Positions 1,860 through 64,000 of a stretch of DNA of 64,000 nucleotides are shown piece by piece. Below the pieces are notes generated by a model, which was given only the letters and a program-made list of their open reading frames with translations, was not told the origin of the DNA and ran no database searches. The stretch's first letter is position 1. Each line of letters starts with the position of its first letter. Origin of the DNA: Planotetraspora kaengkrachanensis (GTDB lineage Bacteria > Actinomycetota > Actinomycetes > Streptosporangiales > Streptosporangiaceae); contig NZ_BONV01000025.1 of assembly GCF_016862895.1 (NCBI RefSeq), positions 124,001-188,000 of the forward strand. The letters run 5' to 3'. Made by a program: the position numbers and the translations under genes.

Positions 1860-3875
1860 TCATGACCAGGGGGACGGCGCCGGCGGGGCGACGACCGGCG
1901 GGCGGTCGTCGCAGGTGATGGTGTTCGGCAGCTCCCACGGGGCGAACCACGGGCCGGTGGTGCCGCCGCCGTCGTTGCCGCCGAGGTCCACCAGGGAGAA
2001 CTCCGAACCGGTGGGCGGGAAGTTGAACGACCCGCAGTTGTTCACGCCGACCGCGCCGACGTTGCGGGCGTCCACGTTCTCGAAGGTCGCCGACCCCTTC
2101 ACGCGGGCGCTGACCACCGAGGTGCCCGTGCCGTCGACCCTGATGTCCTTGAAGTGGACGTTCGTGATCGAATACAGGTCCTTCACGCCGAAGTCGCTGA
2201 CCAGCATGATCGCGTTGTAGGTGTTGTCGAGGAAATGGTCCCCGACGACCTGGACGTCCGCGTCGATGTTCTTCTCGAGCGCGTAGAACCAGATCGCGCC
2301 GAGGCCGATGTTCCAGTTCAGCTCGTACGTGCCGGCGCGGACCGTCGTGTTGTCAGTGATCCGCAGGTGCCCGGCGAACGCCTCGGCGCCGAAGCGGGAA
2401 CCGGCCTGGATGGCGCTGCCCTCCCGGATCGGGTCCGCGATCAGGTTGTTCGACACCGTGGTGTCCGTGCCGCCGTAGATGGCGATGCCGTTCGCGAGGA
2501 CCGGCGTCTGGACGGTGTTGTGGTCGAAGGTGTTGCGGGCGTTGGAGACCTTCTCCGACCACATGGCGAGCGCGTCGTCACCCGTGTTGCGGACGAAGTT
2601 GTTCTTCGCCACGGAATCGGTGACGCCGGTGTGGAAGTTGAGGCCGTCGGCGATCTGGTCGACGATGACGTTGTTCGCGACCTTCACGTTCTTCATCGGG
2701 CCGTCGAACCACACGCCCACCTTGGTGTGGTGGATGTAGAGGCCGTCGATGGTCGAGTCGCTCATCGCGCCGCCGACGCCGTTCACCTGGTCGGTGTCGA
2801 TGCGCTCGCGGACGTCACCCTCGATCGCGAAGCCGGACAGGTGGACGTTCCTGCTGCCGCCGGCGGACGCGTCCTTGCCGTAGAAGCCGACCCCGGTGTG
2901 CACCGAGCCGTCGGGGGCCGGCGTGCTGAGCGCGACCTCCCGGCCCTTGATGATCGTGTACCAGTTGCCGGCGCCCTCGATCGTCACGTCGTCGACGACG
3001 ATGTGCCGGTTCACCTGGTAGGTGCCCGGCGGGATGTAGACCTTCAGGTGGGTGCGCTTCGCGAAGGCGACGGCCTTGTCGAACGCGCCGGCGGAGTCAC
3101 GCCTGCCGGACGGGTCGGCGCCGAACGCCAGCACGTTCGCCGCGACGAGGTTGACCTTCGGCGCGCCGACGAGCTGCGAGTCGAGCAGGTCGACGACCGT
3201 CCACGCGGCCTTGGCGCCCTTGGGGACCGACAGCCGCACCTTGTCGCCCGCGCGGTGCTTCTTGCCGAGGAGCAGGCGCTGCTCGTCGTAGAAGTGGCTC
3301 GGGCGGAACGGCTTGGTGATCGTCGGCGTCGGCGTCGTGGCGTTGGGGACGCAGGCGCACTCCGTGATCCACCAGTCGGGGTGCAGCAGGTCGGCGTTCG
3401 GGTCGTTCGAGAACGGATACTGGTTGTACAGCCACGCGTACTGAGACGTGAGCGTCATGGTGGTGCGGTTCTTGCCGTTCACCGTGACGTCGAGCGGCGA
3501 GGTGATGCCGCCGCCCCCCGGCGCGTCGGGGATGCTGTACCGCACGGTGATCGCGTTGGCCGCGCTCGGCAGGGTGAACTCGACGTACTGACCGGGCGTG
3601 AGCCTGACCGCCTTACGGCCGGACGCCTCCGAGGGCAGCGTGTACGCGGTGCGGTCCGGCCCGATGACCGAGCCGTTCGTCGCGGCGTTCTCCGCCTCCT
3701 GCTCGGCGAAGTCGACGCTCGCGCCCCGGCCCGCCACGAGCGACGGGGCGAGGGCGGCACGCGTCACGACGGGAGAGGCCGAGGTGGAGGCGGAGGCGGG
3801 GGCCGACAGCGCTACGAGGCCGGTGGCCGCGAGGGCCCCCGATAAGAGCGACGCGGATAAGCGGGATCTGAGCAT
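1860..3875 (-). CDS. Secreted GH87 family alpha-glucanase
   Basis: A 671-residue exported protein. It has a Sec signal peptide (about residues 1-30), a CBM35-like carbohydrate-binding domain (about 50-238, with a long insert containing Cys173 and Cys175) and a right-handed beta-helix catalytic domain (about 245-640). Asp410, Asp433 and Asp434 in ADG and TGDD motifs match, in spacing, the catalytic triad I recall for GH87 alpha-1,3-glucanases. GH87 enzymes cut alpha-1,3-glucan or mixed alpha-1,3/1,4-glucan, polymers found in fungal walls and dental plaque. It is the last gene of the transporter operon, 18 bp after the GH13 gene, which supports sequential degradation, import and hydrolysis. It has no discoidin domains, unlike the other two GH87 proteins here. 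Substrate is inferred from family and context. Confidence 0.82.
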   Translation of the reverse strand: MLRSRLSASLLSGALAATGLVALSAPASASTSASPVVTRAALAPSLVAGRGASVDFAEQEAENAATNGSVIGPDRTAYTLPSEASGRKAVRLTPGQYVEFTLPSAANAITVRYSIPDAPGGGGITSPLDVTVNGKNRTTMTLTSQYAWLYNQYPFSNDPNADLLHPDWWITECACVPNATTPTPTITKPFRPSHFYDEQRLLLGKKHRAGDKVRLSVPKGAKAAWTVVDLLDSQLVGAPKVNLVAANVLAFGADPSGRRDSAGAFDKAVAFAKRTHLKVYIPPGTYQVNRHIVVDDVTIEGAGNWYTIIKGREVALSTPAPDGSVHTGVGFYGKDASAGGSRNVHLSGFAIEGDVRERIDTDQVNGVGGAMSDSTIDGLYIHHTKVGVWFDGPMKNVKVANNVIVDQIADGLNFHTGVTDSVAKNNFVRNTGDDALAMWSEKVSNARNTFDHNTVQTPVLANGIAIYGGTDTTVSNNLIADPIREGSAIQAGSRFGAEAFAGHLRITDNTTVRAGTYELNWNIGLGAIWFYALEKNIDADVQVVGDHFLDNTYNAIMLVSDFGVKDLYSITNVHFKDIRVDGTGTSVVSARVKGSATFENVDARNVGAVGVNNCGSFNFPPTGSEFSLVDLGGNDGGGTTGPWFAPWELPNTITCDDRPPVVAPPAPSPWS

Positions 3876-3893
3876 GGGGGGTGTGACCTACCT

Positions 3894-5474
3894 TCAGGAG
3901 GAAAGCCAGGCGGTGGTGTCGGTGGGCAGAAGATCACCGTCAAGGGGTCCGCTCGTCAGCAGGATCGACTCGTGCGGCGGGAGCCGTACCGGCTGGGAGC
4001 CGAGGTTGACCACGCAGATCAGGCCGGAGTCGCGAGTGAAGGCCAGGACGCCGTCCCCCAGGGGCAGCCAGGCCATCACCCCGTCTCCGAGCCGCTCGCG
4101 GCGGATGCCCAGAGCAGCGCGGTAGAGCGACAACATCGATTCGGGATCGGCGAGCTGGGTTTCGACCGTCATCGTGTTCCAGCCCGCGGGTTGCGGCAGC
4201 CAGGGCGCGCCCGTGCTGAAGCCGAACGGCGACTCGCCGCCCGACCACGGCAGCGGAACCCGGCAACCGTCGCGACCCGGGTCGGTGTGCCCCGACCGGG
4301 CCCAGATCGGGTCTTCCCGCAGTTCGTCCGGGATGTCCTCGACCTCCCACAGGCCGAGTTCCTCGCCCTGGTAGACGTAGACGCTGCCGGGCAGGGCCAT
4401 CGCGAGGAGGGCGGCCGCCCGCGCGCGCCGGGTGCCGAGCTCGAAGTCGGACGGCATGCCGTGCTTGCGGTCGCCGTGGTCGAAGGACGTGTCCGCCCGG
4501 CCGAACCGGGTCGCGGGCCGGGTGACGTCGTGGTTCGACAACACCCAGGTCGCCGGCGCGCTGATCGGCACGTGAGTGGCCAGCGTCATGTCGATGACGT
4601 CACGCAGCGCGTCCGGCTCCCAGGGGCTCGCGAGGAAGGCGAAGTTGAACGCGGTGTGCATCTCGTCGGGACGCAGGTAGAGGGCGAACCGCTCCTGGTC
4701 GGGCAGCCACACCTCGCCGATCAGAACCCGGTTCCCGTACTCGTCGGCGATCCGGCGCCACTCGCGGTAGATCTCGTGGACGCCGTCGTGGTCGGTGTAG
4801 GACTCCTCGACGCTGTCGAGGTCCTTGACGAGCACGGCCGCCGAGTCGATGCGGATGCCGTCGACGCCGCGGTCGAACCAGAACCGCAGCACGTCGAGGA
4901 ACTCCTCGCGCACCGCGGGGTTGTTCCAGTTGAAGTCGGGCTGCTCGGGCGCGAACAGGTGCAGGTACCACTCGCCGTCGGGGACCTGGGTCCACGCCGG
5001 CCCACCGAAGATCGACTTCCAGCCGTTGGGCGGGCCGTCGCCGTTCCCCGGACGGAACCAGAACCGCTCCCGGGCCTCCGAACCGGGACCGGCCTCCAGC
5101 GCCTCCTGGAACCAGACCATCTGGTCGGAGCCGTGGTTGGGGACAACGTCGACGATGGTGCGGATGCCGAGTTCGTGCGCCTCCTCGATGAGCTTCTCCG
5201 CCTCGGCCAGGGTTCCGAAGACCGGCTCGATGTTCCGGTAGTCGGCCACGTCGTAGCCGCCGTCGGCCATGGGCGACGGATACCACGGGTTCAGCCAGAT
5301 GGCGTCCACGCCGAGCTTGGAGAGGTACGGGAGACGTGCCCGCAGCCCTGCCAGGTCACCTGTTCCGTCGCCGTTGCCGTCGGCGAAACTGCGCAGGTAG
5401 ACCTGATAGATCGAGGCACCCCTCCACCATCCGTCGGGATTGCGAATCGTCCCCGGGGACGTGTTGGCGGGCAT
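3894..5474 (-). CDS. GH13 alpha-glucosidase (intracellular)
   Basis: A 526-residue glycoside hydrolase family 13 enzyme with no signal peptide, so it acts on imported oligosaccharides. The (beta/alpha)8 barrel motifs are all visible: DVVPNH (residues 109-114), GIRIDSA with the nucleophile Asp210, LIGEVW with the acid/base Glu254, and LSNHD with Asp316. The start region (WWRGASIYQVYLRSF) is typical of actinobacterial oligo-alpha-glucosidases of subfamilies 23/30. The gene lies between the permease genes and the GH87 gene in one operon. Cleavage of nigero- or malto-oligosaccharides to glucose is the likely role; linkage preference cannot be read from the sequence. Confidence 0.9.
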   Translation of the reverse strand: MPANTSPGTIRNPDGWWRGASIYQVYLRSFADGNGDGTGDLAGLRARLPYLSKLGVDAIWLNPWYPSPMADGGYDVADYRNIEPVFGTLAEAEKLIEEAHELGIRTIVDVVPNHGSDQMVWFQEALEAGPGSEARERFWFRPGNGDGPPNGWKSIFGGPAWTQVPDGEWYLHLFAPEQPDFNWNNPAVREEFLDVLRFWFDRGVDGIRIDSAAVLVKDLDSVEESYTDHDGVHEIYREWRRIADEYGNRVLIGEVWLPDQERFALYLRPDEMHTAFNFAFLASPWEPDALRDVIDMTLATHVPISAPATWVLSNHDVTRPATRFGRADTSFDHGDRKHGMPSDFELGTRRARAAALLAMALPGSVYVYQGEELGLWEVEDIPDELREDPIWARSGHTDPGRDGCRVPLPWSGGESPFGFSTGAPWLPQPAGWNTMTVETQLADPESMLSLYRAALGIRRERLGDGVMAWLPLGDGVLAFTRDSGLICVVNLGSQPVRLPPHESILLTSGPLDGDLLPTDTTAWLSS

Positions 5475-5504
5475 GCTGAAGACAGCTCCTTACGGTGAAG
5501 GGCC

Positions 5505-6488
5505 TCAGCCCTTGAGGCTTCCGGCGGTGAGACCGGCCATGATGTGGCGCTGGAAGATGAAGAAGACGACGATGGTCGGAATGCTCGCGATCACCAGTGA
5601 GGCGACGAGCACGTTCTGCGGCATCTGCGAGGACAGCGAGGCGATGCCGATGCTGATGGACATCCTGTCGCTGTCCGGCAGGACCAGCAGCGGCCAGACG
5701 AAGTCCCGCCAGACGTTCACCACGGTGAGGATGGAGACCACGCCGAGGATCGGGCGCGAGATCGGGATCACCACCGACCACAGGACGCGGCCGGGCGACG
5801 CGCCGTCGATCTCGGCGGCCTCCAGCAGTTCTCTGGGGATCGAGTCGAAGAAGCGCTTGAGCAGGAAGACGTTGAAGCCGTTCGCCGCGGCCGGCAACCA
5901 GATCGCCCACGGGGTGTTGAGCAGGTCCCAGTGGAAGAACGGCACGTCCTTCACGGTGAGGTAGGCGGGCAGCATGATGACCAGCGGCGGGATCATCAGC
6001 GTCGACAACATCAGGGCCAGGACGACCTTGCCGAGCACCGGGCGGAGCTTGGACAGGGCGTAGGCCGCGGAGACGTCGAACGCGATGGTCAGCAGCCAGG
6101 CGCCGCCCGCGTAGAGGGCGGTGTTGCCGAGCAGCCGGCCCAGCTCCAGCAGATCCCACGCCTGCAGGTAGCCGTCCAGCGAGAAGTGCTCAGGCAGGAA
6201 GGTCGGCGGGATGGAGTTGAGCTCCTCCGTCGACTTCATCGCGCCGGTGATCATCCAGTAGAGCGGGAAGACGAACGCGGCGGTGAAGCTGACGACCACG
6301 ATCACCAGCACGATCCAGTAGATGATCCGGCCGTGGGTCGTGTTGAGCTGGTGCGGCGAGACGGCGGTGCGGAACTGCGTGTTGATCGGCTTGCGCGGTC
6401 GCCGTTGCCGGCGCCCGCCGCGCTCATCCCACCCGGGAGAGGACGGCGCGTCCGCGGAACGGCCGGGAGTCACGGTGGCGTTGGACAT
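5505..6488 (-). CDS. Sugar ABC transporter permease, MalG type
   Basis: An inner-membrane permease of 327 residues with about six membrane segments and the EAA cytoplasmic loop (EAAEIDGASPGRVLW, then P-I-S-R-P) that docks the ATPase. I place the start at the ATG at 6488, which has GGGGAG 5 nt upstream and an 11-bp gap to the preceding gene; the ATG at 6503 lacks such a site. It pairs with the MalF-type permease upstream. No ATPase gene is present in the operon, as is usual for actinomycete sugar importers that share an MsiK-type ATPase encoded elsewhere. Confidence 0.92.
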   Translation of the reverse strand: MSNATVTPGRSADAPSSPGWDERGGRRQRRPRKPINTQFRTAVSPHQLNTTHGRIIYWIVLVIVVVSFTAAFVFPLYWMITGAMKSTEELNSIPPTFLPEHFSLDGYLQAWDLLELGRLLGNTALYAGGAWLLTIAFDVSAAYALSKLRPVLGKVVLALMLSTLMIPPLVIMLPAYLTVKDVPFFHWDLLNTPWAIWLPAAANGFNVFLLKRFFDSIPRELLEAAEIDGASPGRVLWSVVIPISRPILGVVSILTVVNVWRDFVWPLLVLPDSDRMSISIGIASLSSQMPQNVLVASLVIASIPTIVVFFIFQRHIMAGLTAGSLKG

Positions 6489-6499
6489 GGTCGCTCCCC

Positions 6500-7423
6500 T
6501 CACACCGTGTTGTCGCGCGAGACGCGCAGGTAGATGGCGGAGAACACCATGAGCACGAGCATCAGCATGAGTCCGAGGGCGTTGCCTGCGTTCAGGCTGC
6601 CGAAGTTGAAGGCGTACTGATACATGAGATAGACGACGGTGACCGTCGAGTTCTCCGGGCCGCCGCCGGTGAGCAGATAGGGCTCGATGAAGACCTGCAT
6701 GGTCGCGACGATCTGCAGCAGCAGCATCACCAGCAGGATGAGCTTGGTCTGCGGGATCGTGATGTGCCTGATCCGCTTGAAGAGGCCGGCGCCGTCCAGC
6801 TCGGCGGCCTCGTACAGTTCACTGGGGATGGTCTGCAGGGCGGCGAGATAGATCAGGGTGCCGCTGCCCATGTTCATCCAGGTTGAGACGATGACCAGCG
6901 AGATCAGCGCGGTGCTCGTCGAGTTGAGCCACTGGAGCCCCGGCAGGTGGAAGAAGCCGAGGACCTGGTTGAACAGCCCGTAGTCGGGGTTGTAGAACCA
7001 CTGGAACAGCAGGACGCCCACCGCGGGCGGCAACATCACCGGCAGGTAGACGACGAAGCGCAGGTAGGCGCGCGCGTGCCGTAGTTCGTTGAGGACGAGC
7101 GCGGTGATGAAGGGGATCACGTAGCCGCAGAGCAGTGCGAGCAGCGTGAACATCGCTGTGTTGATCCACGCGGGCGCGAAGGCCGGGTCGCTGAAGACGG
7201 TGCGGAAGTTCTTCAGCCCCACCCATTCGGGTGCGTCCACGAAGTTCGTCTTCTGGAAGCTGAGGATGACCTGCCGGACCATCGGATACCAGGAGAAGAA
7301 CGCGAAACAGATCAGAGCGCCGCAGAGGAATCCGTAGGCGGTCAGATTGCGTCGCACGGCTCGCCGCAGCTTCGTGGGCTGCCGCCGCCTGCGGTTCGCT
7401 ACCGGGAGACTCGCTGTGGTCAT
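6500..7423 (-). CDS. Sugar ABC transporter permease, MalF type
   Basis: A 307-residue membrane protein with about six transmembrane helices and an EAA loop (EAAELDGAGLFKRIRHITIPQ). The N terminus is short and basic, without the long insertion of E. coli MalF, as is usual for CUT1-family permeases of Gram-positive bacteria. It forms the channel heterodimer with the product of 5505-6488. A strong hairpin (7452-7498) separates it from the binding-protein gene. Confidence 0.92.
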   Translation of the reverse strand: MTTASLPVANRRRRQPTKLRRAVRRNLTAYGFLCGALICFAFFSWYPMVRQVILSFQKTNFVDAPEWVGLKNFRTVFSDPAFAPAWINTAMFTLLALLCGYVIPFITALVLNELRHARAYLRFVVYLPVMLPPAVGVLLFQWFYNPDYGLFNQVLGFFHLPGLQWLNSTSTALISLVIVSTWMNMGSGTLIYLAALQTIPSELYEAAELDGAGLFKRIRHITIPQTKLILLVMLLLQIVATMQVFIEPYLLTGGGPENSTVTVVYLMYQYAFNFGSLNAGNALGLMLMLVLMVFSAIYLRVSRDNTV

Positions 7424-7451
7424 CGTTGTGTTTCCGATCTCGACGTGCCAG

Positions 7452-7498
7452 CCGGGGCGCCGGCCGTGGCCTGGTGACGGCCACTACCGGCGCCCCGG
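7452..7498 (-). promoter_or_regulatory. Long stem-loop between the binding-protein and permease genes
   Basis: CCGGGGCGCCGG (7452-7463) pairs exactly with 7487-7498, and an inner GTGGCC/GGCCAC stem (7466-7471, 7479-7484) extends it around a TGGTGAC loop. It lies inside the operon just after the binding-protein stop codon. Such intra-operon hairpins commonly allow partial read-through or protect the upstream mRNA, giving more binding protein than permease. Confidence 0.7.
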
Positions 7499-7510
7499 AT
7501 TATCGGACGG

Positions 7511-8893
7511 TCAGCTCTTCGAGGCGAGCATGGAGTTGACCTTCGCCTCGGCGTCGGACAGGAGCTGGTCGACGTTGGCGTCCTTCCTGGTGAGCACGGC
7601 CGACATCGGGGTGTCGAGAATCGCGTAGATCTCCTGGGCGTACGGCCCCGGCTCCGGCTTCGGCGAGATGCCCTTGGAGCCTTCGACCCATCCCGCGAAC
7701 TGGGCGGCGTCGATGTTGGCGTTGGCCGCGCGCAGGTCGGTGACCGCCTTGCCCGACGCGGTGTCCGCGCCGTACAGGTCGGGGTAGGGCTGACCGACGG
7801 TCAGGTCCTGGCTCTTGGCCCGCACGTAGTCGAGCTGGCCCTTGCCCGGGGTGAGGAACTTGTACTCGATCCACTTGAGGCCGGCCCTGATCTGGTCCGG
7901 GGTGGCCTTCGGGTTGATCATGTAGCCGGCGCCGCCGTTGAGCAGGGCCTTGGCCTCGGGCTGGGCGGTGACGGCGTAGTTCTCGAACTTGCCGCCGAAG
8001 TCGTTGCGGAGCGAGATGAGCACGTCGGGCGCGCCCAGCATCATGCCCATCTTGCCGCCGGCCATGGCCTTCATGAGGGCCGGCCACTCGATGTACAGCT
8101 GGGAGCCCATGCTGTTGTCGGTCCACCGCATCTGCTGGAGGTTCTGCAGGACGGCCTTGCCTTCGGGGGTGTTGAAGGCGGCCTTCTTGCCGTCGTCGCT
8201 GATGACCGAACCGCCGCGGCCGTAGAGGGAGGCGGTGAAGTGCCAGCCGCCGGTGTTGCCGCCGCTGTACTCGCCGTACCCGACGTAGCCGGGGCCGAGC
8301 GCGGCGATCTGCTTGGCGGCGGCCTGAACCTCGGCCCAGGTCTTGGGCGGGTTGTTCGGGTCGAGGCCGGCCTTGGTGAAGACGTCCTTGTTGTAGACCA
8401 GGCCCATGCCGTAGCCGTCGGTCGGCAGACCGTAGACCTTGCCGTCCTTCTTGAACAGGTCGAGCGAGCTGTTGTAGTCAGGGAACGTCTTCAGCTCGTT
8501 GACGTAGGAGGAGATGTCGGCGGCCTGCCCGCTCTCGATGAGGCGGCCCACGTTGGGGAAGTTGACGTAGAAGACCGTCTCGAGTTCGCCGCTGGCCAGC
8601 TTCGGCTCGAAGGTCTTCGGGTCGTAGCAGGGGAAGGCGTCGGTGACCTTGGAGATCGTGATGTTCGGGTACAGCTTCTGGAAGCCCGCGACGTCCTCTT
8701 CGAAGGTCGCGCGCTCCGCCTTGTTCGTCTTCGGCGGCTCACAGTTGACGCTGATCGACACCGGCGCGTTGGGGTTGGCGGACGGCGCAGCGGACTGGCC
8801 GGCGTCACCGCCTCCGTCGCTGCTGCTGCCACAGCCCGCCGCCGCCAGGGCCAGGCCCGCGGCCAGAAGTATCGAAAGCTTGCGGGGTTTCAT
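7511..8893 (-). CDS. Sugar ABC transporter substrate-binding lipoprotein
   Basis: A 460-residue extracellular solute-binding protein of the CUT1 type (family 1 fold). The start at 8893 has AGGAGGG directly upstream. It has a lipoprotein signal (basic MKPRK, hydrophobic stretch, then AAAGC with the lipidated Cys near residue 20) and a low-complexity Ser/Gly/Ala linker. It heads the operon that continues with two permeases, GH13 and GH87, so its ligand is probably an alpha-gluco-oligosaccharide released by GH87. The promoter lies in 8894-9104. Confidence 0.92.
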   Translation of the reverse strand: MKPRKLSILLAAGLALAAAGCGSSSDGGGDAGQSAAPSANPNAPVSISVNCEPPKTNKAERATFEEDVAGFQKLYPNITISKVTDAFPCYDPKTFEPKLASGELETVFYVNFPNVGRLIESGQAADISSYVNELKTFPDYNSSLDLFKKDGKVYGLPTDGYGMGLVYNKDVFTKAGLDPNNPPKTWAEVQAAAKQIAALGPGYVGYGEYSGGNTGGWHFTASLYGRGGSVISDDGKKAAFNTPEGKAVLQNLQQMRWTDNSMGSQLYIEWPALMKAMAGGKMGMMLGAPDVLISLRNDFGGKFENYAVTAQPEAKALLNGGAGYMINPKATPDQIRAGLKWIEYKFLTPGKGQLDYVRAKSQDLTVGQPYPDLYGADTASGKAVTDLRAANANIDAAQFAGWVEGSKGISPKPEPGPYAQEIYAILDTPMSAVLTRKDANVDQLLSDAEAKVNSMLASKS

Positions 8894-9104
8894 GATTGTT
8901 CCCTCCTGGAACGGCGCACCACGGACCCGTCTTGGAGTTCGCTGTCTCGGGGGCATGGGGGGCGCCTCCGATCCAGCTCGGTTGCGAGAAACATACAGAG
9001 CCATGCAGAACGCAGCAATACTCTGGCATTCATGATGCAAAAAAGTGACAGTGATTCCGGCGAAACCGCGCCGCACGATCGCCGTCACACCGCGTGACAT
9101 GACG
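8894..9104 (-). promoter_or_regulatory. Promoter region of the alpha-glucan operon
   Basis: This 211-bp stretch is the AT-richest part of the area and drives the five-gene minus-strand operon. Read on the minus strand, 8982-8998 gives CTGTATGTTTCTCGCAA. A closely similar element, CTGTTAGTTTCTCTGCAA, stands upstream of the third GH87 gene (50097-50114). The conserved CTGT, GTTTCTC and GCAA blocks suggest a shared operator or activator site. I cannot assign the -10 and -35 boxes with certainty. Confidence 0.5.
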
Positions 9105-9135
9105 GAGCCCCTGGACACACGGGGTCCAGGGGCTC
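9105..9135 (-). terminator. 12-bp stem-loop terminator after the first LacI gene
   Basis: GAGCCCCTGGAC (9105-9116) pairs exactly with 9124-9135 around a 7-nt loop, 13 bp beyond the LacI stop codon. It isolates the regulator from the transporter operon that starts just downstream on the same strand. Confidence 0.75.
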
Positions 9136-9148
9136 GGAGGGGCGATCT

Positions 9149-10291
9149 CTACTCGGCCTCGGCGGCCGGGCGCCGGGGCGATCCCCCGGCCGCGGCGGGG
9201 ATCGACACGGGCGACGCGGACGACGCCGTCGACGCGGGCCGCGCGGCCGCGGAGCCCGTCATGACCGGCGAACCGGGCTGCTTCGCACGCGGCGCGGGCG
9301 CGGTCGAGGACCGGACCACCAGTTCGGGTTCGAAGAGCAGCTCGTTCGCCGGAACGATGGCGGCGTCGATCTGCGCCACCAGCAGTTCGACGGCCGCCCT
9401 GCCCATGGCGTCGATCGGCTGACGGACCGTGGTCAGGGGCGGGTCGATGCAGTTCATCAGGGCCGAGTCGTCGTAGCCGATGACTGAGAAGTCCTCGGGT
9501 ACGGCGAGGCCCGCGCGGCGGGCCGCCCGGATGGCGCCGAGGGCCAGGACGTCGCTCGCGCAGATCACCCCGGTGACTCCGGCCCGGATGAGCCTGGCCG
9601 CACCCGCGTGGCCGCCCTCGACCGAGAACATGGTGTGCTCGACGTGGCCGGCCGGCAGGTCGAGGTCGTTGGCCTCGGCGAACGCACGATAGGCGGCCAG
9701 CTTGAGCCGCGAGGGTTCGTGGTCGGGGGCGCCGAGGAGCATGCCGATCCTGCGATGCCCGAGAGCGAACAGGTGACCGAGCGCCATCTCGGCGGCCGCC
9801 GCGTCGTCGCAGGACACCTGGGGGAATCCCAGGTGCTCGACGGCCGCGTTGACCAGCACCGCGGGGAGCTTGCGATCCAGCACCCGCTCGTAGTGGTCGT
9901 GGGGCGCGTCGCCCTGGGCGTACTGCCCGCCGGCGAAGACGATGCCCGAGACGTGCTGCTGGAGGAGCAGGTCGACGTAGTCCGACTCCGAGACCCCGCC
10001 GACCGTCCGGGTGCACAACACCGCGGTGAACCCCTGCTGCGCGAGGGCGCCGCCGACGATCTCGGCGAAGGCGGGGAAGATCGGGTTCTGCAGCTCGGGA
10101 AGGACCAGGCCCACCAGGCGGCCCCTGTCACCGCGCAACTGGGTCGGCCGCTCGTATCCGAGCACGTCGAGCGCGGTCAGCACGGCCTCACGAGTGGTCT
10201 CGGAGACGCCGGGCTTGCCGTTGAGCACACGGCTCACGGTCGCCTCGCTCACGCCGACCTTCTTGGCCACTTCCGCAAGCCGTCGAGTCAT
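9149..10291 (-). CDS. LacI-family repressor, copy 1
   Basis: A 380-residue LacI/GalR regulator. The helix-turn-helix and hinge cover residues 1-60 (LAEVAKKVGVSEATVSRVLNGK), followed by a periplasmic-binding-protein-like ligand domain (about 60-335) and a Pro/Ala/Ser-rich tail of about 45 residues that copy 2 lacks. It sits between the transporter operon and the divergent GH87 gene and most likely represses both until an alpha-gluco-oligosaccharide binds. The recognition helix is identical to that of copy 2, so the two should recognise the same operator. The gene appears leaderless: a TATAGT box lies 7 nt before the ATG and there is no ribosome-binding site. Confidence 0.93.
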   Translation of the reverse strand: MTRRLAEVAKKVGVSEATVSRVLNGKPGVSETTREAVLTALDVLGYERPTQLRGDRGRLVGLVLPELQNPIFPAFAEIVGGALAQQGFTAVLCTRTVGGVSESDYVDLLLQQHVSGIVFAGGQYAQGDAPHDHYERVLDRKLPAVLVNAAVEHLGFPQVSCDDAAAAEMALGHLFALGHRRIGMLLGAPDHEPSRLKLAAYRAFAEANDLDLPAGHVEHTMFSVEGGHAGAARLIRAGVTGVICASDVLALGAIRAARRAGLAVPEDFSVIGYDDSALMNCIDPPLTTVRQPIDAMGRAAVELLVAQIDAAIVPANELLFEPELVVRSSTAPAPRAKQPGSPVMTGSAAARPASTASSASPVSIPAAAGGSPRRPAAEAE

Positions 10292-10304
10292 AGGCGCAAC
10301 TATA
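10292..10304 (-). promoter_or_regulatory. Leaderless promoter of LacI copy 1
   Basis: On the minus strand TATAGT (10304 to 10299) is followed by 7 nt (TGCGCCT) and then the ATG start. This spacing places the transcription start on the A of ATG. A TTGCGC half-site overlaps the box, which fits autorepression. LacI copy 2 has the same arrangement. Confidence 0.6.
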
Positions 10305-10313
10305 CGACAAATA

Positions 10314-10339
10314 GCGCAAGCACTTTCATGGGCTTGCGC
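10314..10339. promoter_or_regulatory. Palindromic operator candidate for the LacI pair
   Basis: GCGCAAGC (10314-10321) and GCTTGCGC (10332-10339) form perfect 8-bp arms around a 10-nt spacer. It lies just upstream of the leaderless promoter of LacI copy 1, in the intergenic region shared with the GH87 gene at 10582. CGCAAG half-sites also occur upstream of LacI copy 2 and of the third GH87 gene. Confidence 0.6.
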
Positions 10340-10444
10340 AGCCGGTCAGGACGCCTCACCGGCAGTCAGGGAAATTTGACCTGCGGCGGACCGTTCCATC
10401 TGGCCGTTCACCTGCGCTTAGTTCATCGACTTAACTGTGGCGTG

Positions 10445-10477
10445 ATATTGCGACTTATCGTCGAAATATTGCAGTTA
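10445..10477 (+). promoter_or_regulatory. Two ATATTGC motifs exactly 21 bp apart upstream of the second GH87 gene
   Basis: ATATTGCGACTT (10445-10456) and ATATTGCAGTTA (10466-10477) are near-repeats spaced 21 bp start to start, about two helical turns. They lie about 105 bp before the start of the GH87 gene at 10582. The same heptamer occurs twice in the NRPS-side intergenic region (51763-52003). This suggests paired protein-binding sites in the promoter; the protein is unknown. Confidence 0.45.
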
Positions 10478-10581
10478 CGTGTTCGCGAACCTAATGTGTG
10501 GGCCACCTCACATGTTGCAGAGGTGCGACGGCTCAGCGTCCCCGTCGTCCCTCGCGGATCTTCATGCAGAAAGGGTCGCTC

Positions 10582-13452
10582 ATGAAACGATCCGGAGTCG
10601 CCGCGGCAGCGGTGGCCGGGGCGCTGATCGCCCTCGGGAGCGTGGTCACGCTCCCGGGCACCTCGTCGGCGGCCGTGTCGCCGTCACCCTTCTCCGTTCC
10701 CGGACGCGGCGCGACCGTGCCCTTCACCGAGATCGAGGCCGAGGCGGCCGCGACGAACGGTGAAGTCATCGGATCCGACCGGGTGTACACGCGCCTGCCG
10801 TCGGAGGCCTCCGGACGCCGCGCCGTACGGCTCGACGCGGCGGGCGAGTACGTCGAGTTCACCCTGCCCAAGGCCGCCAACGCGATGACGGTGCGCTACA
10901 GCGTCCCGGACAACGCGGCCGGCACGGGCATCACCGCGCCCGTCGACCTGCGCGTCAACGGGACCAAGCTGAAGGACCTGTCGCTCACCTCGAAGTACGG
11001 CTGGTACTACGGCGGCTACCCGTTCGGCAACCAGCCGGGCAACCAGCCCCACCACTTCTACGACGAGACCCGCACCCTGTTCGGCTCCACCCTGGCGGCC
11101 GGCACCAAGGTCAGGATCCAGGTGGCGTCCACCGCGGCCTCCCCCTGGTTCGTGGTCGACCTCGCCGACTTCGAGCTGGCGCCCGACCCGATCCCGCAGC
11201 CCGCGGGATCCCTCAACGTCGACGACTTCGGCGCCGTCAGGAACGGCGCGACCGACTCCACCGCCGCGTTCCAGGCGGCCGTCGACGCAGGAAAGGCGCA
11301 GGGCAAGGCCGTCTACATCCCCGCGGGCACCTACACGTTGTGGGACCACGTGGTCGTGGACGGCGTGACACTCCGCGGGGCCGGCCCCTGGTACAGCGTG
11401 CTCACCGGCCGCAACCCCACCCAGCGCAACCGCGCCGCCGGCATCTACGGCAAGTACGTCAGCGGCGGCGGCTACACCGGCCCCGTCCGGTCCCACGAGG
11501 CGGGCGGCCCGAGCAGGAACGTCACCCTCCGCGACTTCGCCATCATCGGCGAGATCACCGAGCGGGTGGACGAGGACCAGGTGAACGCCCTCGGCGGCGC
11601 GATGACGGACTCCACGGTGGACAACCTCTGGATCCAGCACACCAAGGTCGGGGCCTGGATGGACGGCCCCATGAACAACTTCACGATCAAGAACAGCCGC
11701 ATCATCGACCAGACCGCCGACGGGGTGAACTTCCACACCGGCGTCACGAACTCGACGGTGACCAACACCTTCGTCCGCAACACCGGCGACGACGGCCTGG
11801 CCATGTGGCCCGATCGCGTCGCCAACGTCAACAACTCGTTCACCTTCAACACCGTGGTCGCACCGGTCCTCGCCAACAACATCGTCACGTACGGCGGCAG
11901 GGACATAAAGATCACCGACAACGTGGTGAGCGACACGGTCACCAACGGCGGCGGCATCCACATCGCCAACCGGTATCCGGGCGTCAACTCCGGTCAGGGC
12001 ACCGCGGTCGCCGGCACGATCACCGCCGCCCGCAACACCCTGATCCGGGCCGGCAACAGCGACTACAACTGGAACTTCGGCGTCGGCGCCATCTGGTTCG
12101 ACGGGCTCAACGAACCCGTCAACGCGACCATCAACGTGACCGACACCGACATCATCGACAGCTCGTACGAGGCCATCCAGTTCATCGAGGGCAGCACCAG
12201 CACCGTCAACTTCAGCAACGTGAAGATCGACGGCACCGGCACGTACATGATCCAGGCGCAGTCAGGGGCGTCGGCCACGTTCACCAACGTGACGGCCGCC
12301 CACATCGGCGCGGGCACCGCGATCCACAACTGCGTGGGCACCGCGTTCTCCCCCGTGTACGGCACGGGCAACTCCGGCTGGAGCACGTCCTCGACCACGT
12401 GCACCGGTCAGTGGCCCGCACCGAACTACATCTACGACGGCACCGGCACGCCGCCGCCCGACACCCCCACCCCCACGCCGCCGGTGACCCCGACCCCGAC
12501 CCCCACGCCGACCCCCACGCCGACTCCGCCCACCTGTTCCGTCGGGACCGGCGACCTGGCCCGGGGCAAGCCCGCCACCGCGACCAGCAGCACCCAGTCG
12601 TTCGGCCCCGCGAACGCCGTGGACGGCGACGCGAGCAGCTACTGGGAGTCGGCCAACAACGCCTTCCCGCAGTCGATCACCGTCGACCTGTGCGGCGTCG
12701 CGTCCGTGAACCGGGTCGCGCTGAAGCTGCCGCCGAGCTCCGCGTGGGCCACCCGCACCCAGACGCTGTCCGTCCTGGGCAGCACCGACGGTTCGAACTT
12801 CACCACGTTGTCCGCGTCGGCGGGACGCACCTTCGACCCCGCGAGCGGCAACACCGTGAACATCTCGTTCACCACGGCGGCCGTCCGCCACGTCCGCATC
12901 ACCGTCACGGGCAACACGGGCTGGCCGGCCGGGCAGCTGTCCGCGCTCGAGGTCTACGGGTCCGGATCGACCCCGCCGCCGGTGACGCCGACTCCCACAC
13001 CCACGCCCACCCCGACGCCCACACCTCCGGCCGGGGGGAACCTGGCGGGAGGCAGGCCCATCACTGCGAGCACCCACGCCGACGTCTACGTGCCCGGCAA
13101 CGCGAACGACCGCAACGCGAACACCTACTGGGAGTCGGCCAACAACGCCTTCCCCCAGACGCTGACCGTCGACCTCGGCTCCACGACCAGCGTCGGCAGG
13201 GTCGTGCTCAAGCTTCCGCCGAGCTCCGCGTGGGCCACCCGCACCCAGACGCTGTCCCTTCAGGGCAGCACCGACGGCTCGTCGTACAGCACGATCGCGG
13301 GATCCGCCGGCTACACGTTCGATCCCGCCGGCGGCAACACCGCGACGATCACCTTCCCGGCGGCCGGCAGGCGCTACCTGCGGCTGAACATCACCGGCAA
13401 CACCGGCTGGCCCGCCGGCCAGATCTCCGAGTTCGAGGCGTACGCCTCGTAG
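10582..13452 (+). CDS. Secreted GH87 alpha-glucanase with two C-terminal discoidin domains
   Basis: A 956-residue secreted enzyme. The ATG at 10582 follows AAAGGG by 6 nt; a GTG 28 codons upstream is unlikely. Order: signal peptide (1-31), CBM35-like domain (about 40-200), GH87 beta-helix (about 208-620, with Asp380, Asp403 and Asp404 in the GH87 spacing), Pro-Thr linker (625-650), F5/8-type C discoidin domain (651-793), second Pro-Thr linker (796-816) and second discoidin domain (818-956). Discoidin modules in GH87 enzymes bind insoluble alpha-1,3-glucan. The two discoidin domains share stretches identical at DNA level (42 nt at 12730 and 13216; 29 nt at 12640 and 13126), pointing to recent duplication or conversion. 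The gene is flanked by the two LacI genes. Confidence 0.85.
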   Translation: MKRSGVAAAAVAGALIALGSVVTLPGTSSAAVSPSPFSVPGRGATVPFTEIEAEAAATNGEVIGSDRVYTRLPSEASGRRAVRLDAAGEYVEFTLPKAANAMTVRYSVPDNAAGTGITAPVDLRVNGTKLKDLSLTSKYGWYYGGYPFGNQPGNQPHHFYDETRTLFGSTLAAGTKVRIQVASTAASPWFVVDLADFELAPDPIPQPAGSLNVDDFGAVRNGATDSTAAFQAAVDAGKAQGKAVYIPAGTYTLWDHVVVDGVTLRGAGPWYSVLTGRNPTQRNRAAGIYGKYVSGGGYTGPVRSHEAGGPSRNVTLRDFAIIGEITERVDEDQVNALGGAMTDSTVDNLWIQHTKVGAWMDGPMNNFTIKNSRIIDQTADGVNFHTGVTNSTVTNTFVRNTGDDGLAMWPDRVANVNNSFTFNTVVAPVLANNIVTYGGRDIKITDNVVSDTVTNGGGIHIANRYPGVNSGQGTAVAGTITAARNTLIRAGNSDYNWNFGVGAIWFDGLNEPVNATINVTDTDIIDSSYEAIQFIEGSTSTVNFSNVKIDGTGTYMIQAQSGASATFTNVTAAHIGAGTAIHNCVGTAFSPVYGTGNSGWSTSSTTCTGQWPAPNYIYDGTGTPPPDTPTPTPPVTPTPTPTPTPTPTPPTCSVGTGDLARGKPATATSSTQSFGPANAVDGDASSYWESANNAFPQSITVDLCGVASVNRVALKLPPSSAWATRTQTLSVLGSTDGSNFTTLSASAGRTFDPASGNTVNISFTTAAVRHVRITVTGNTGWPAGQLSALEVYGSGSTPPPVTPTPTPTPTPTPTPPAGGNLAGGRPITASTHADVYVPGNANDRNANTYWESANNAFPQTLTVDLGSTTSVGRVVLKLPPSSAWATRTQTLSLQGSTDGSSYSTIAGSAGYTFDPAGGNTATITFPAAGRRYLRLNITGNTGWPAGQISEFEAYAS

Positions 13453-13464
13453 TCGGAACGGAAG

Positions 13465-13533
13465 CCCGTTGAAGGAGTGGACGCCTCCTTCGACGGGAGG
13501 CCCGGAGAAGGAGTGGACGCCTCCTTCTCCGGG
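13465..13533. terminator. Tandem stem-loops between GH87 and LacI copy 2
   Basis: Two hairpins follow one another. 13465-13497 has a 13-bp stem with one G-U pair, and 13501-13533 has a perfect 13-bp stem. Both carry the same TGGACGC loop and GAAGGAG/CTCCTTC core. They lie between convergent genes and should stop transcription from both sides. The shared loop suggests duplication of one hairpin. Confidence 0.8.
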
Positions 13534-13583
13534 TTCCGTTCTTGCCGTACGGATTCCATTCTCATCCGGATTCGCCCGAACGC

Positions 13584-14576
13584 TCAGACCGCGAGGGCTC
13601 CCATTCGTCCCGTCGAGGACCGGACGACGAGCTCGGGCTCGAAGAGAAGCTCCCCGGTCGCGACGGCGGCGCCGTCGATCTGGCTGACCAGCAGCTCGAC
13701 GACCGCCCTGCCCATCGCCTCGATCGGCTGGCGCACGGTGGTGAGCGGCGGGTCGACGCAGTTCATCAGCGCCGAGTCGTCGTACCCGATGACCGAGACG
13801 TCGGCGGGCACCCGCAGCCCCTCACGCCTGGCCGCCCTGATGGCGCCGAGCGCGAGCGGGTCGCTTCCGCAGATGATGCCGGTGACCTGCTGCCGCAGCA
13901 GCTTCACCGCGGCGGCGTGACCGCCCTCCAGCGAGTGCATGGTGTGCTCGACCCGCTCGCCGCCCTGCGCGCGGAACGCGTCCAGCTTGCGGATCGACGG
14001 CATGTGATCCGGCGGCCCCACGATCAGGCCGATGCGCTCGTGGCCCAGCGCGCGCAGGTGCCCCAGAGACTGCTCGACCGCGATCGTGTCGTCGCAGGAG
14101 ACGCGCGGGAACTCCCAGTGGTCGGCCGCCGCGTTGACCATGACCGTCGGAAGGCGCCGGTCGATCAGCCGGAGGTAGTGGTCGTGGACCACGCCCGACT
14201 GCGTGTAGAGCCCACCGGCGAAGACCACGCCGGAAACCTGCTGCTGGAGGAGCAGGTCGACGTAGTCGGCCTCGGAGACCCCGCCGACGGTGCGCGTGCA
14301 CAACACCGGTGTGAAGCCCTGCTGGGCGAGTGCGCCACCGACGACCTCGGCGAAGGCCGGGAAGATCGGGTTCTGCAACTCGGGCAGTACGAGTCCGACG
14401 AGCCGGGCGCGCTCTCCGCGCAGCTGGGTCGGCCGCTCGTATCCGAGCACGTCGAGGGCGGTCAGCACCGCTTCGCGGGTGGCCTCGGAGACTCCGGCCT
14501 TGCCGTTGAGGACACGGCTGACCGTGGCCTCGCTGACTCCTACTTTTTTCGCAACTTCAGCAAGCCGTCGCGTCAT
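13584..14576 (-). CDS. LacI-family repressor, copy 2
   Basis: A 330-residue LacI/GalR regulator nearly identical to copy 1 over the helix-turn-helix and the first half of the ligand domain (LVGLVLPELQNPIFPAFAE and VLCTRTVGG segments shared) but without the C-terminal tail. I start it at 14576 (MTRRLAEV) to match copy 1; an ATG at 14588 is also in frame. TATGCT lies 7 nt before this ATG with no ribosome-binding site, so the mRNA is probably leaderless. Convergent to the GH87 gene at 10582, it probably controls that gene together with copy 1. The pair looks like a recent duplication with partly diverged ligand pockets. Confidence 0.92.
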   Translation of the reverse strand: MTRRLAEVAKKVGVSEATVSRVLNGKAGVSEATREAVLTALDVLGYERPTQLRGERARLVGLVLPELQNPIFPAFAEVVGGALAQQGFTPVLCTRTVGGVSEADYVDLLLQQQVSGVVFAGGLYTQSGVVHDHYLRLIDRRLPTVMVNAAADHWEFPRVSCDDTIAVEQSLGHLRALGHERIGLIVGPPDHMPSIRKLDAFRAQGGERVEHTMHSLEGGHAAAVKLLRQQVTGIICGSDPLALGAIRAARREGLRVPADVSVIGYDDSALMNCVDPPLTTVRQPIEAMGRAVVELLVSQIDGAAVATGELLFEPELVVRSSTGRMGALAV

Positions 14577-14624
14577 GAGCGCAAGCATACGACGGCCGAT
14601 GCCGTACCTTTGCGATCACTTGCG
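14577..14624 (-). promoter_or_regulatory. Leaderless promoter and operator-like sites of LacI copy 2
   Basis: On the minus strand TATGCT (14589 to 14584) is followed by TGCGCTC and the ATG, the same geometry as in copy 1. An imperfect TTTGCGATCACTTGCG element (14609-14624) further upstream repeats the TTGCG half-site. Between 14625 and 14701 I see only a GC-rich palindrome, CCCGCCGTACGGCGGG at 14653-14668, which may end transcription of the next gene. Confidence 0.5.
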
Positions 14625-15358: not shown

Positions 15359-15580
15359 TCAGGACAGGTCGAACTCGCCGCCCTTCACGCCGTCAACGAA
15401 GGCGTCCCACTCCCCTGCAGTGAACATCAGTTTCGGCCCTTCGGGGTTCTTAGAGTCGCGCACGGCGACCCCTTGGCTCAGGAGAGCCACTTCGACACAC
15501 TGGTTGCCCACGGTGTTGGAACGGGCCGCCTTGCGCCAGACCGCACCGGCAAGGTCGTGCGCCGGATGAATGCCCTTCAT
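15359..15580 (-). CDS. DUF397 protein, third copy
   Basis: A 73-residue DUF397 protein (W-R-K-A-A-R-S-N-T-V-G-N-Q-C-V-E-V core, AVRDSKNPEGP, and a G-E-W-D-A-F-V-D-G-V ending). Its ATG overlaps the stop of the XRE gene by ATGA, so the two are translationally coupled and presumably made in fixed ratio. Compared with copies one and two it has a longer N terminus (KGIHPAHDLAGA), a variant common in this family. Confidence 0.9.
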   Translation of the reverse strand: MKGIHPAHDLAGAVWRKAARSNTVGNQCVEVALLSQGVAVRDSKNPEGPKLMFTAGEWDAFVDGVKGGEFDLS

Positions 15581-16428
15581 CGTCCTGTCATCTCCTTCTC
15601 GACCGAATCGATCTTCTCCAGGGACTTCTCCGGGCCGAGCGCGGCGGCGCGAAGATGATCGAAGACCTGGACATACCTGCGGACCTCTTCCTGGCTCTCC
15701 AGGTAGAGCTCGCCGCCCATGTTCTCCAGGAACACCACGTCGGAGTCCTCGGGGTCGGGGAAGGTGAGGATCGCCAGTGAACTGCCCATGCCGAGGTAGG
15801 CGCCCGCCTCGAAGGGCAGCACCTGGAGGGTGACGTTCGGCTGGACGGCGGTCTCCGACAGCCGGCGCAGTTGCTCGGCCATGACGGGCGGACCCCCGAC
15901 GGGCCGCCGGAGCGCGGCCTCGTCGAGGACGACCCACAGATCCAGACCATCGGGAACGGTGAGGCGCCGTTGCCGCTCCATGCGGACCGTGATCCGCCGT
16001 TCGATCTCCGCCGGGTCCTTCACCAGTGCGGCCCCCACGACCGCACGGGCGTAGGACTCGGTCTCCAGCAGCCCGGGGACGAGCAGCGGCTCGTAGTTGC
16101 GGACCGAGGCGGCCTCCGCCTCGAGCCCGACGTACGGCCCGGGGAGGACATCCCCGAACGCGTGCCACCAGCCGCGCCGTCCGGCCTCCCGAGCGAGCTC
16201 GAGAAGCACCTGCCGTTCCGTGCCGCGGACATCGTAGAGATCGAGCAGATCCCGAATGGTCCGGCCCTGGGGCCGGGTGTGTCCGGTCTCGATCCGGTAC
16301 ACCGTGGAACCCGCCACACCGAGGCGGCTCGCCACGTCCTCTCTGCTGAGCCCCGACTCACCCCGCAGGCGCGTCAGCTCACCGGCGAGCCGGCGAAGCC
16401 GGACCGATGGGCTGCGTCCTACCCCCAT
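15577..16428 (-). CDS. XRE-family regulator, Scr1/DUF5753 type, second locus
   Basis: A 283-residue regulator. I start at the ATG at 16428, which has GGGAG about 10 nt upstream; the open frame extends further but into non-family sequence. The helix-turn-helix (about 20-75, SREDVASRLGVAGSTVYRIETG) is followed by DUF5753 (VPGLLETESYARAVV, RMERQRRL, LQVLPFEAGAYLGMG). The gene is divergent from the ATPase-fold gene at 16573 and coupled to DUF397. This three-part layout (XRE, DUF397, HATPase-like) is common in actinomycetes, where it is tied to antibiotic production or development. Confidence 0.9.
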   Translation of the reverse strand: MGVGRSPSVRLRRLAGELTRLRGESGLSREDVASRLGVAGSTVYRIETGHTRPQGRTIRDLLDLYDVRGTERQVLLELAREAGRRGWWHAFGDVLPGPYVGLEAEAASVRNYEPLLVPGLLETESYARAVVGAALVKDPAEIERRITVRMERQRRLTVPDGLDLWVVLDEAALRRPVGGPPVMAEQLRRLSETAVQPNVTLQVLPFEAGAYLGMGSSLAILTFPDPEDSDVVFLENMGGELYLESQEEVRRYVQVFDHLRAAALGPEKSLEKIDSVEKEMTGR

Positions 16429-16572
16429 GAGACGACATCTCCCTACGAAAGGAACTTTGCAATAGTGCATTCGCAGTATTGCGTGACGGAATTCCAAAGT
16501 GCAGGATGAATGCAGTCTGGCACGGACCGCACTTCCGCATTGGCTGACGGGTACACAGGGAGTTATCACAGG

Positions 16573-49854: not shown

Positions 49855-50379
49855 CGCGTTTCTCTATCTCTCGTCTGGAACGACAGGGAGTGGCGGGGAG
49901 ACCGCGATCTCCACGCGCGACGCACGCGGCCGAGCCGGTCAGCGTGACTCCAGGGGGCGCCGAACGCCCGCCGGCGGCTGTGAGCTGGCGGGGAGCGTGC
50001 GGGCACTGCCAATGCCGACATCACCGAAGGCCTCTCCGTGGATGGGCCGGGGCGGATGCACGGACGCAGTGCTTTCCTGCCGCAAGTTGCGAAAGATTGC
50101 AGAGAAACTAACAGGGCTTTGATGGGATCTTGCACCGGACTGGCCAAATGTTACATACGTGCTACGACGGCGTCAACGGCTCGACAAGACCGATGTCAGC
50201 ACGACTCGACAAAAGAGAAAGGGCCACGTCGGGAGCCGTGTCATCGGTCGCCCTCATTGACGCGTGCCGGCCCGGATACGGGGCGCGCCGAGTGCGCCCA
50301 TGCCGAATTCGCCGCCCGCTCGCACGCGGCGCATCGGATTCGCCTTCTTCGCTCTTTCGGGCGAAAAAGCTTTTATCGG
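49855..50379 (-). promoter_or_regulatory. 525-bp upstream region of the third GH87 gene
   Basis: No gene is supported here. The minus-strand promoter of the GH87 gene should lie in it. CGCAAGTTGCG (50081-50091) is a near-palindrome with the CGCAA half-site of the LacI operator candidate. Next to it, the minus strand of 50097-50114 reads CTGTTAGTTTCTCTGCAA, closely matching the element upstream of the binding-protein gene (8982-8998). Both are 230-260 bp from the start codon, implying a long leader or a distal site. The region 50330-50380 is AT-rich with an AAAAGCTTTT palindrome and may terminate the condensation-protein gene. Confidence 0.5.
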
Positions 50380-51762: not shown

Positions 51763-52003
51763 GTCGCCCTCCCCGCTCGCAAGCGATGGGAGATTACTAT
51801 CGGGATATTGCAGGGATGTATATAACCATGTCAGTCTTTCCACGAGATTATTGCGGTTTGCGCAACTGATATTGCGGCATGCCGTCGGCGATCTCGCTCG
51901 AAATGCCATTTCGCGGCTGCTCAGAGCCCCTGCCGCGCCGCCGTGCCCAGGACGGGGGTCCTGGCCAGATCGGGGAGCCTGCCATTCACGACATGAGCAC
52001 GAC
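51763..52003. promoter_or_regulatory. Divergent promoter region of the NRPS cluster
   Basis: This AT-rich 241-bp gap separates the condensation-protein gene from the carrier and synthetase genes. It holds ATATTGC twice (51805-51811 and 51869-51875), a related ATTATTGC near 51847, and the palindrome TTGCGCAA (51858-51865) between the latter two. The same ATATTGC motif occurs twice upstream of the GH87 gene at 10582. A pathway regulator may bind here. I cannot fix -10 and -35 boxes. Confidence 0.5.
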
Positions 52004-52276: not shown

Positions 52277-52321
52277 CCCGGAGCCTGGGCGGACCGCCCG
52301 GACATGACGCGTCACCTCACC

Positions 52322-52390: not shown

Positions 52391-52398
52391 GCGTTGCG

Positions 52399-58587: not shown

Positions 58588-64000
<5,413 letters not shown>

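Follow-up and report, generated by a model that had tools for sequence, protein, structure and literature searches.

A 64,000-nucleotide stretch of the Planotetraspora kaengkrachanensis genome (contig NZ_BONV01000025.1, positions 124,001 to 188,000; "the window", from whose first letter all positions are counted) carries a gene cluster described earlier, from the letters alone, as a self-contained locus for alpha-1,3-glucan utilisation. Five minus-strand genes encoding a solute-binding protein (SBP), two permeases of an ATP-binding cassette (ABC) importer, a GH13 enzyme and a GH87 enzyme (GH87-B) form an operon, with gaps of 87, -4, 30 and 18 bp in that order. LacI-1 lies upstream of the SBP gene across a gap of 255 bp that contains a hairpin, and beyond it follow a divergent GH87 gene (GH87-A) and LacI-2. 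All of these genes, named in the original prediction, are open frames with the expected Pfam domains. The features are as follows.

1860-3875, minus strand: GH87-B, 671 amino acids, signal peptide by eye, last operon gene, 18 bp after GH13; CatAgl_D1 and CatAgl_D2
3894-5474, minus strand: predicted GH13 alpha-glucosidase, 526 amino acids; RIDSAA and WLNPWY signature, Pfam Alpha-amylase
5505-6503, minus strand: ABC permease, MalG-type; BPD_transp_1, weak UgpE/GlcU/MalG-like matches
6500-7423, minus strand: ABC permease, MalF-type; BPD_transp_1, weak GlcT/UgpA/MalF-like matches, 4-bp overlap with the MalG-type gene
7511-8893, minus strand: solute-binding lipoprotein (SBP); SBP_bac_1/SBP_bac_8, lipobox cysteine at residue 21
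9014-9051, minus strand: conserved element upstream of the SBP gene, from footprint and motif model; strong copy at 9036-9051, degenerate copy at 9014-9028 (by eye)
9105-9135, minus strand: terminator-like hairpin after LacI-1, perfect 12-bp arms at 9105-9116 and 9124-9135; read from the sequence
9149-10291, minus strand: LacI-1; Pfam LacI and Peripla_BP_3
10295-10310, plus strand: copy of the SBP-type element beside the LacI-1 start; motif scan, 16.1 bits with the model refitted without the genus
10314-10339, no strand: inverted repeat, perfect 8-bp arms, 10-bp spacer; possible LacI-type operator, read from the sequence
10439-10473, plus strand: direct repeat of the element with copies 21 bp apart; the genome's sole perfect GTCGNNATATTGCA is at 10460-10473
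10582-13452, plus strand: GH87-A, divergent, about 956 amino acids, signal peptide by eye, two F5/8-type-C stretches; CatAgl_D1 and CatAgl_D2
13584-14588, minus strand: LacI-2; Pfam LacI and Peripla_BP_3, N-terminal part nearly identical to LacI-1
46264-49854, minus strand: GH87-C, 1196 amino acids, F5/8-type-C and CARDB domains, outside the operon; nearest solved structure 6k0m

The ATG at 10582 is the likeliest start of GH87-A, other starts being possible, and LacI-2 has an in-frame ATG at 14576, where the originally predicted region ended. That region left out GH87-C, the third GH87 of the window. The hairpin after LacI-1 was also present in four relatives of the genus in an alignment of upstream regions.

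The enzymes and the importer

Both CatAgl_D1 (galactose-binding-like) and CatAgl_D2 (right-handed beta-helix) scored above the curated Pfam cut-offs in GH87-A, GH87-B and GH87-C. The best match to a solved structure was 7c7d for GH87-A (E value 8e-114) and GH87-B (2e-99), and for GH87-C the alpha-1,3-glucanase 6k0m (8e-125), which we take to be the Paenibacillus enzyme Agl-FH1. The predicted aspartate triad (D, +23, +24) was seen in all four GH87 proteins of the genome: as Asp382/405/406 in GH87-A (numbered from base 10576), as Asp410/433/434 in GH87-B, and with the same spacing in GH87-C and in GH87-D, a fourth enzyme encoded on another contig. This spacing equals that of Asp1067/1090/1091 in Agl-KA (PMC6814745; this and all other cited papers were available to us in part and are cited for those parts). 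Homology predicts an alpha-1,3-glucanase (or mycodextranase) role for GH87-A and GH87-B.

The SBP lipoprotein and two BPD_transp_1 permeases, all present, are features of a CUT1-type ABC importer, and the lipobox cysteine C21 of the SBP was invariant in an alignment of 11. The closest named relatives of the SBP are in Planotetraspora (96-97% identity). By sequence the nearest solved SBPs are 7bvt, the cyclic maltosyl-maltose (CMM)-binding protein of Arthrobacter globiformis, which is the closest, and Lmo0181. A predicted model (mean predicted local distance difference test score 84.6) had Tlet_1705, Lmo0181 with cycloalternan and 7bvt as its nearest structures; all structural neighbours are about 20% identical to the SBP, so the ligand is not readable from the model.

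The original claim of self-containment failed on the importer's ATPase. A motif scan found no Walker-A motif in the called genes of the window and of locus L014, and none of the seven homologues in the genome (E values up to 1e-60) of the ATPase of a separate maltose-type operon, described below, lies on the window's contig. The transporter ATPase must therefore be encoded elsewhere. Streptomycete ABC sugar importers share an MsiK-like ATPase.

The GH13 protein matched Pfam Alpha-amylase (E value 1e-96), with the alpha-glucosidase 8yif/8yie, for which the literature gave docking uses only, as its best solved match. Its catalytic motifs RIDSAA, GEVW and SNHD, with the nucleophile Asp, the acid/base Glu and the third Asp, are present. 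No signal peptide is visible by eye, and the enzyme is presumed to be intracellular.

Conservation of the operon and its company with GH87

To see how far the arrangement extends, an SBP like that of the window (E value up to 1e-60) was sought in 297 family genomes and found in 143, in a search that scored five candidates per genome and may thus overstate absences. Eighty loci were picked from these matches to span the range of identity (they come from 77 genomes, three of which contributed two loci each; truncation at a contig end did not exclude a locus). The order SBP-MalF-MalG-GH13 was intact in 79 of them, the exception being L125, and a same-strand LacI gene lay within 2.6 kb of this core in 71. 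In a second collection of 80 named loci, 32 shared with the first and 48 new, the core was present in every one. A GH87 gene lay within the fetched stretch (about 10 kb) at 48 of the 80 family loci, namely at 23 of the 28 whose SBPs are closest and at 25 of the remaining 52; among the named loci the figure was 53 of 80, with 32 of the 48 new loci included. When neighbours were crudely clustered, GH87 was the commonest non-core partner (45 loci), the next clusters being unannotated and counting 28, 17, 16 and fewer loci. The GH87-bearing operon was seen in Planotetraspora, Microbispora, Nonomuraea, Herbidospora, Actinomadura and Streptomyces.

At the level of whole genomes, GH87 (PF22815) was detected in 118 of the 297: 114 had both the SBP and GH87, 29 the SBP only, 4 GH87 only (one of these, G059, falls below the Pfam cut-off) and 150 neither. 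Across a 100-genome subset the odds ratio for association with GH87 was 44 for the SBP versus 5.2 for ordinary MalE, which served as a yardstick although at a different E-value limit (up to 1e-120); the genomes are kin, so that such figures overstate independence. The 8.77-Mb genome under study has four matches to the GH87 D1 model. As two of them are at this locus, and as the arrangement recurs in many genera, it is not a product of chance.

In a quick GH87 tree of 97 rows (those longer than 380 amino acids and without a stop were kept), which carried a warning of long branches meeting, operon-linked enzymes fell into several deep clades and were placed either after GH13 or divergent from LacI; the GH87-C clade held both linked and unlinked members. 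The label "unlinked" required 8 changes on this tree, at least 6 of them across well-supported branches, which favours repeated joining or leaving of the operon. Type A lay within 10 kb of the SBP gene in 10 of the 11 genomes having it, among the 100 compared. Type A thus goes with the operon, and type B joined it in certain lineages, including Planotetraspora and Microbispora. A clade of 48 rows that were all operon-linked was dropped as a sampling effect, the unlinked rows being the best listed matches only.

The GH13 enzymes of these operons share a Ser directly after the nucleophile, found in 71 of 75 family rows (the window included) and in all 79 alignable named rows, counts that omit loci with an incompletely called GH13. 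The AglA-like GH13 paralogues on loci L012 and L013 have Val at this position. In GH13 enzymes the residue after the nucleophile helps determine linkage preference, and the operon enzyme probably differs from the maltase; an alpha-1,3 preference would be the one suggested by its gene context.

An anchor to a tested enzyme came from Streptomyces. Among 12 named loci of this genus, six have GH87 directly after GH13 (L194, L197, L199, L200, L205 and L208) and two have it on the other side (L191 and L207); no GH87 was found in the other four (L196, on a short contig, L201, L202 and L206). The operon GH87 of S. olivaceoviridis (L200) is identical to 7C7D at 456 of 541 residues (84.3%), and 7C7D is named as a mutanase from S. 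thermodiastaticus (PMC11475409). This identity ties the homologous operon, whose SBP is about 50% identical to that of the window, to alpha-1,3-glucan. It also stands against a reading in which the design is the same and the real substrate is a mixed alpha-glucan such as nigeran (alpha-1,3/1,4), alternan or cycloalternan (alpha-1,3/1,6). In favour of such a substrate, actinomycete mycodextranases form a GH87 cluster (PMC10696023), soil Streptomyces grow on mutan and alternan (PMC11475409), and the nearest solved relatives of the SBP include Lmo0181 with cycloalternan and the CMM binder. On balance we regard a mixed glucan as unlikely, though the strongest of the alternatives.

Another idea is that the cluster serves mainly antifungal offence or wall remodelling, with import of the products secondary. 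GH87-A does have two F5/8-type-C domains in Pfam, a type of module that binds walls, and GH87-C lies next to a gene with a condensation domain and to two very large frames. However, the conserved unit is importer plus GH13, kept even without GH87, which is a design for feeding, and we consider this idea very improbable.

A direct repeat shared by the SBP and GH87 genes

The upstream regions of the SBP genes share a strongly conserved element, which reads CTGTCACTTTTTTGCA in the nearest species and takes the form of a direct repeat of about GTCGNNNTATTGCA in others (26 of the 29 rows of the footprint alignment had a usable stretch). Copies on the same strand among 81 upstream regions were spaced by 21 bp 27 times and by 53 bp 23 times. 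At 10439-10473, in the gap separating LacI-1 from GH87-A, the same repeat is present; the genome has a single perfect form of it and 12 forms with one mismatch.

To ask whether this second position is general, LacI-adjacent regions were scored with an element model refitted without the test genus, its seed being drawn from all genera. The 8-bit mark was exceeded at every one of the 37 loci (11 genera) that have a divergent GH87, and in 18 of 444 intergenic regions lying apart from these genes. The latter control excludes regions with the SBP site, which had partly contaminated the first controls (25 of 304 scored at least the test value). Both genes were called at 28 of the 37 loci: 25 had gaps of 28-676 bp with nothing between, and three (L064, L106 and L121) had 1.1-2.2 kb between LacI and GH87; at the other nine the gap was not resolved. 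Of the 12 named Streptomyces loci, 11 had their SBP region scanned, and each of these, none of them in training, has a site scoring 14 bits or more. By gene class, again at more than 8 bits, the shares were 81% of 74 SBP regions (the training set), 70% of 23 GH87A, 50% of 56 LacI1, 23% of 22 LacI2, 21% of 19 GH87C and 4% of 583 others; these rest on crude gene starts, and some GH87A starts (L054, L055 and L060) are wrong. In the genome under study, no strong element was found upstream of GH87-C and GH87-D, the best sites reaching 5.7 and 6.7 bits.

LacI-1 and LacI-2 each combine a LacI helix-turn-helix with a periplasmic-binding-like sensor domain. LacI proteins usually bind palindromes, and the element shared by the putative regulated genes is a direct repeat with 21-bp spacing. 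As LacI genes without GH87 have it upstream too, LacI-1 is its natural candidate binder. The best site upstream of the LacI gene of L066 and of the GH87C gene of L072 is the near-palindromic GCAAATATTTGC, hinting at how a LacI-type palindrome could have given rise to the direct-repeat site.

A predicted route from alpha-1,3-glucan to glucose

Gene content and order, conservation, co-occurrence with GH87 and a common cis-element are observed, and from them we infer that the locus is probably a system for the utilisation of alpha-1,3-glucan, taken up as nigero-oligosaccharides. Secreted GH87-A and GH87-B would cleave the polymer to nigerose and short nigero-oligosaccharides, which the lipoprotein would capture and the two permeases, powered by an ATPase encoded elsewhere, would import; the intracellular GH13 would then split the imported fragments to glucose. 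LacI-1, probably with LacI-2, would repress the operon, the divergent GH87 gene and itself until imported sugar relieves the repression. Substrate, import, linkage preference of the GH13, element-binding LacI and ATPase are thus predicted parts of the scheme, with nigerose as the presumed imported sugar and fungal walls as the presumed food. Synteny, co-occurrence, the cis-element, the separate maltose operon and the homologous Streptomyces operon, whose GH87 is an 84% relative of a known alpha-1,3-glucanase, lend good support to the original proposal of an alpha-1,3-glucan locus that has import and regulation of its own, except for its self-containment.

Several observations, besides the kinship of the genomes noted above, weigh against this reading. 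The association with GH87 has gaps: no GH87 is near the operon at 32 of the 80 family loci (a few of them cut by contig ends), where neighbours were mostly singletons by crude clustering, and 29 of the 143 genomes with the SBP have no GH87 match. GH71, considered as a substitute for GH87, was rejected because just 4 of these 29 have it; some species must therefore use the importer for another source. A GH71 search of the genome under study found none. B-like GH87 enzymes (44-47% identical to A) lay within 10 kb of the SBP gene in just 5 of 21 places among the 100 genomes; in 4 they were 28-83 kb away on the same contig and in 12 elsewhere in the genome. The family GH87 includes actinomycete mycodextranases (PMC10696023), and GH87-A and GH87-B could act on nigeran. 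The structural neighbours of the SBP bind diverse sugars. Four more distant loci (L120-L123) carry Val after the GH13 nucleophile, with a GH87 placed between MalG and GH13 at L121-L122, and possibly represent a second lineage of the same operon design. Finally, the element's presence upstream of LacI genes without GH87 may mean that it serves LacI autoregulation first.

A maltose-type operon lies elsewhere in the genome, on contig C37 (G000:C37, locus L013), with a MalE-like SBP, an adjacent ATPase gene, permeases, an AglA-like GH13 and LacI, and with no GH87 match. Its SBP matches GacH with an E value of 9e-113 and S. scabiei MalE with 1e-102; the window SBP matches MalE (8art) with just 2.5e-9 and GacH with 7e-9 and is not an orthologue of either. 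This distinct operon ruled out the locus as the maltose operon. The window operon might still be a second system for maltose or maltodextrin uptake with the GH87 genes as passengers, given that its order is that of Streptomyces malR-malE-malF-malG-aglA, that its GH13 is 59-61% identical to the AglA-like paralogues, and that GH87 is missing from the 29 genomes mentioned and B-like GH87 mostly unlinked. Against this, the genome has the separate operon just described, the window SBP is far from MalE, the GH13 signature differs, 114 of the 118 GH87 genomes have this SBP, and its cis-element recurs beside the divergent GH87. We therefore think a second maltose operon improbable and favour the alpha-1,3-glucan system. 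Ahead of the MalE-like gene, L013 (6390-6420) has a palindrome, TTGCTGAAA-G-TTTCAGCAA, unlike the element of the window operon.

Parts of this design are known from other systems. One counterpart is a cluster of the Firmicute Lachnoclostridium phytofermentans (Cphy1874 nigerose phosphorylase, Cphy_1877 GH31_u1; PMC9061262), in which genes for an ABC transporter and LacI regulators likewise neighbour a putative GH87, along with nigerose-splitting enzymes; these are a GH65 nigerose phosphorylase and a GH31 alpha-1,3-glucosidase, in contrast to the GH13 here, and the role of the cluster was proposed from gene content. The actinobacterial cellobiose operons of CelR/CebR (PMC3377646) also join LacI, an SBP, two permeases, an intracellular glucosidase and secreted depolymerases under the same regulator, but their substrate is a beta-glucan and their operators are palindromic, whereas a 21-bp-spaced direct repeat is found here. 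The cmm cluster of A. globiformis (PMC7676653) similarly pairs an SBP and two permeases with a GH13 alpha-glucosidase for an unusual alpha-gluco-oligosaccharide, in that case made from starch via a secreted GH13, with three GH13 enzymes and no GH87 named. The maltose-type operon L013 and its Streptomyces counterpart malR-malEFG-aglA have the same protein families and permease-GH13 order; L013 differs in its GacH/MalE-like SBP, Val for Ser after the GH13 nucleophile, its adjacent ATPase gene and the lack of a GH87 match. 7C7D is likewise a GH87, described as a single enzyme, and the homologous Streptomyces operon encodes an 84% relative of it; GH87-A and GH87-B are more distant from it.

We found no system from actinobacteria for the import of alpha-1,3-glucan and its control in the open-licence literature, most subscription journals being outside the search. 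The authors of PMC13421300 state that to their knowledge no polysaccharide utilisation locus containing GH87 has been experimentally characterised, and PMC11431748 lists GH87 counts in Planotetraspora and mentions no operon. The earlier statement that no such system is described thus stands for actinomycetes within these searches and falls more generally with the published Firmicute cluster. The parts of the locus are ordinary and of known kinds; their arrangement for this substrate seems undescribed in actinobacteria, and three specialised components are testable.

Many fungi have alpha-1,3-glucan in their walls, and the polymer also occurs in dental plaque; to our knowledge, little is known of how bacteria take up its breakdown products. 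The conserved operon supplies candidates for the missing steps, namely a binding protein, an importer, an intracellular enzyme and a regulator; named Streptomyces strains that carry it can be used for testing them, and in soil genomes its genes could mark organisms that feed on fungal walls. More tentatively, with the chances somewhat short of even, the locus may be one instance of a widespread actinobacterial alpha-1,3-glucan regulon, comprising an SBP family for nigero-oligosaccharides, a Ser-marked GH13 subclade of alpha-1,3-glucosidases and a LacI reading the 21-bp-spaced direct repeat, to which separate deep GH87 clades would have been drawn more than once. If so, feeding on fungal alpha-1,3-glucan would be common among these soil actinobacteria, Streptomyces included.

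Some further features concern the GH87 genes outside the operon. GH87-C and GH87-D, on separate contigs, have in common a long upstream stretch and leader (window 49855-50390 and L011 11905-12360), seen by eye as TGCAAGAT, CGCAACTT, CACTGCGTCCGTGCA and GGTGATGTCGGC and unlike that of the operon; the L011 stretch upstream of GH87-D has the palindrome TGCAAGA-T-TCTTGCA. These two genes may respond to a different regulator. The condensation-domain gene adjoining GH87-C lies at 50380-52005 and the two very large frames at 52399-58587 and 58587-63998; the former frame has motifs like those of nonribosomal peptide synthetases by eye, and the frames from 50380 to 63998 are probably a nonribosomal peptide cluster clipped by the window end. 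Helix-turn-helix/DUF5753 regulators are encoded on both flanks of the locus, at 196-1077 and 15577-16569.

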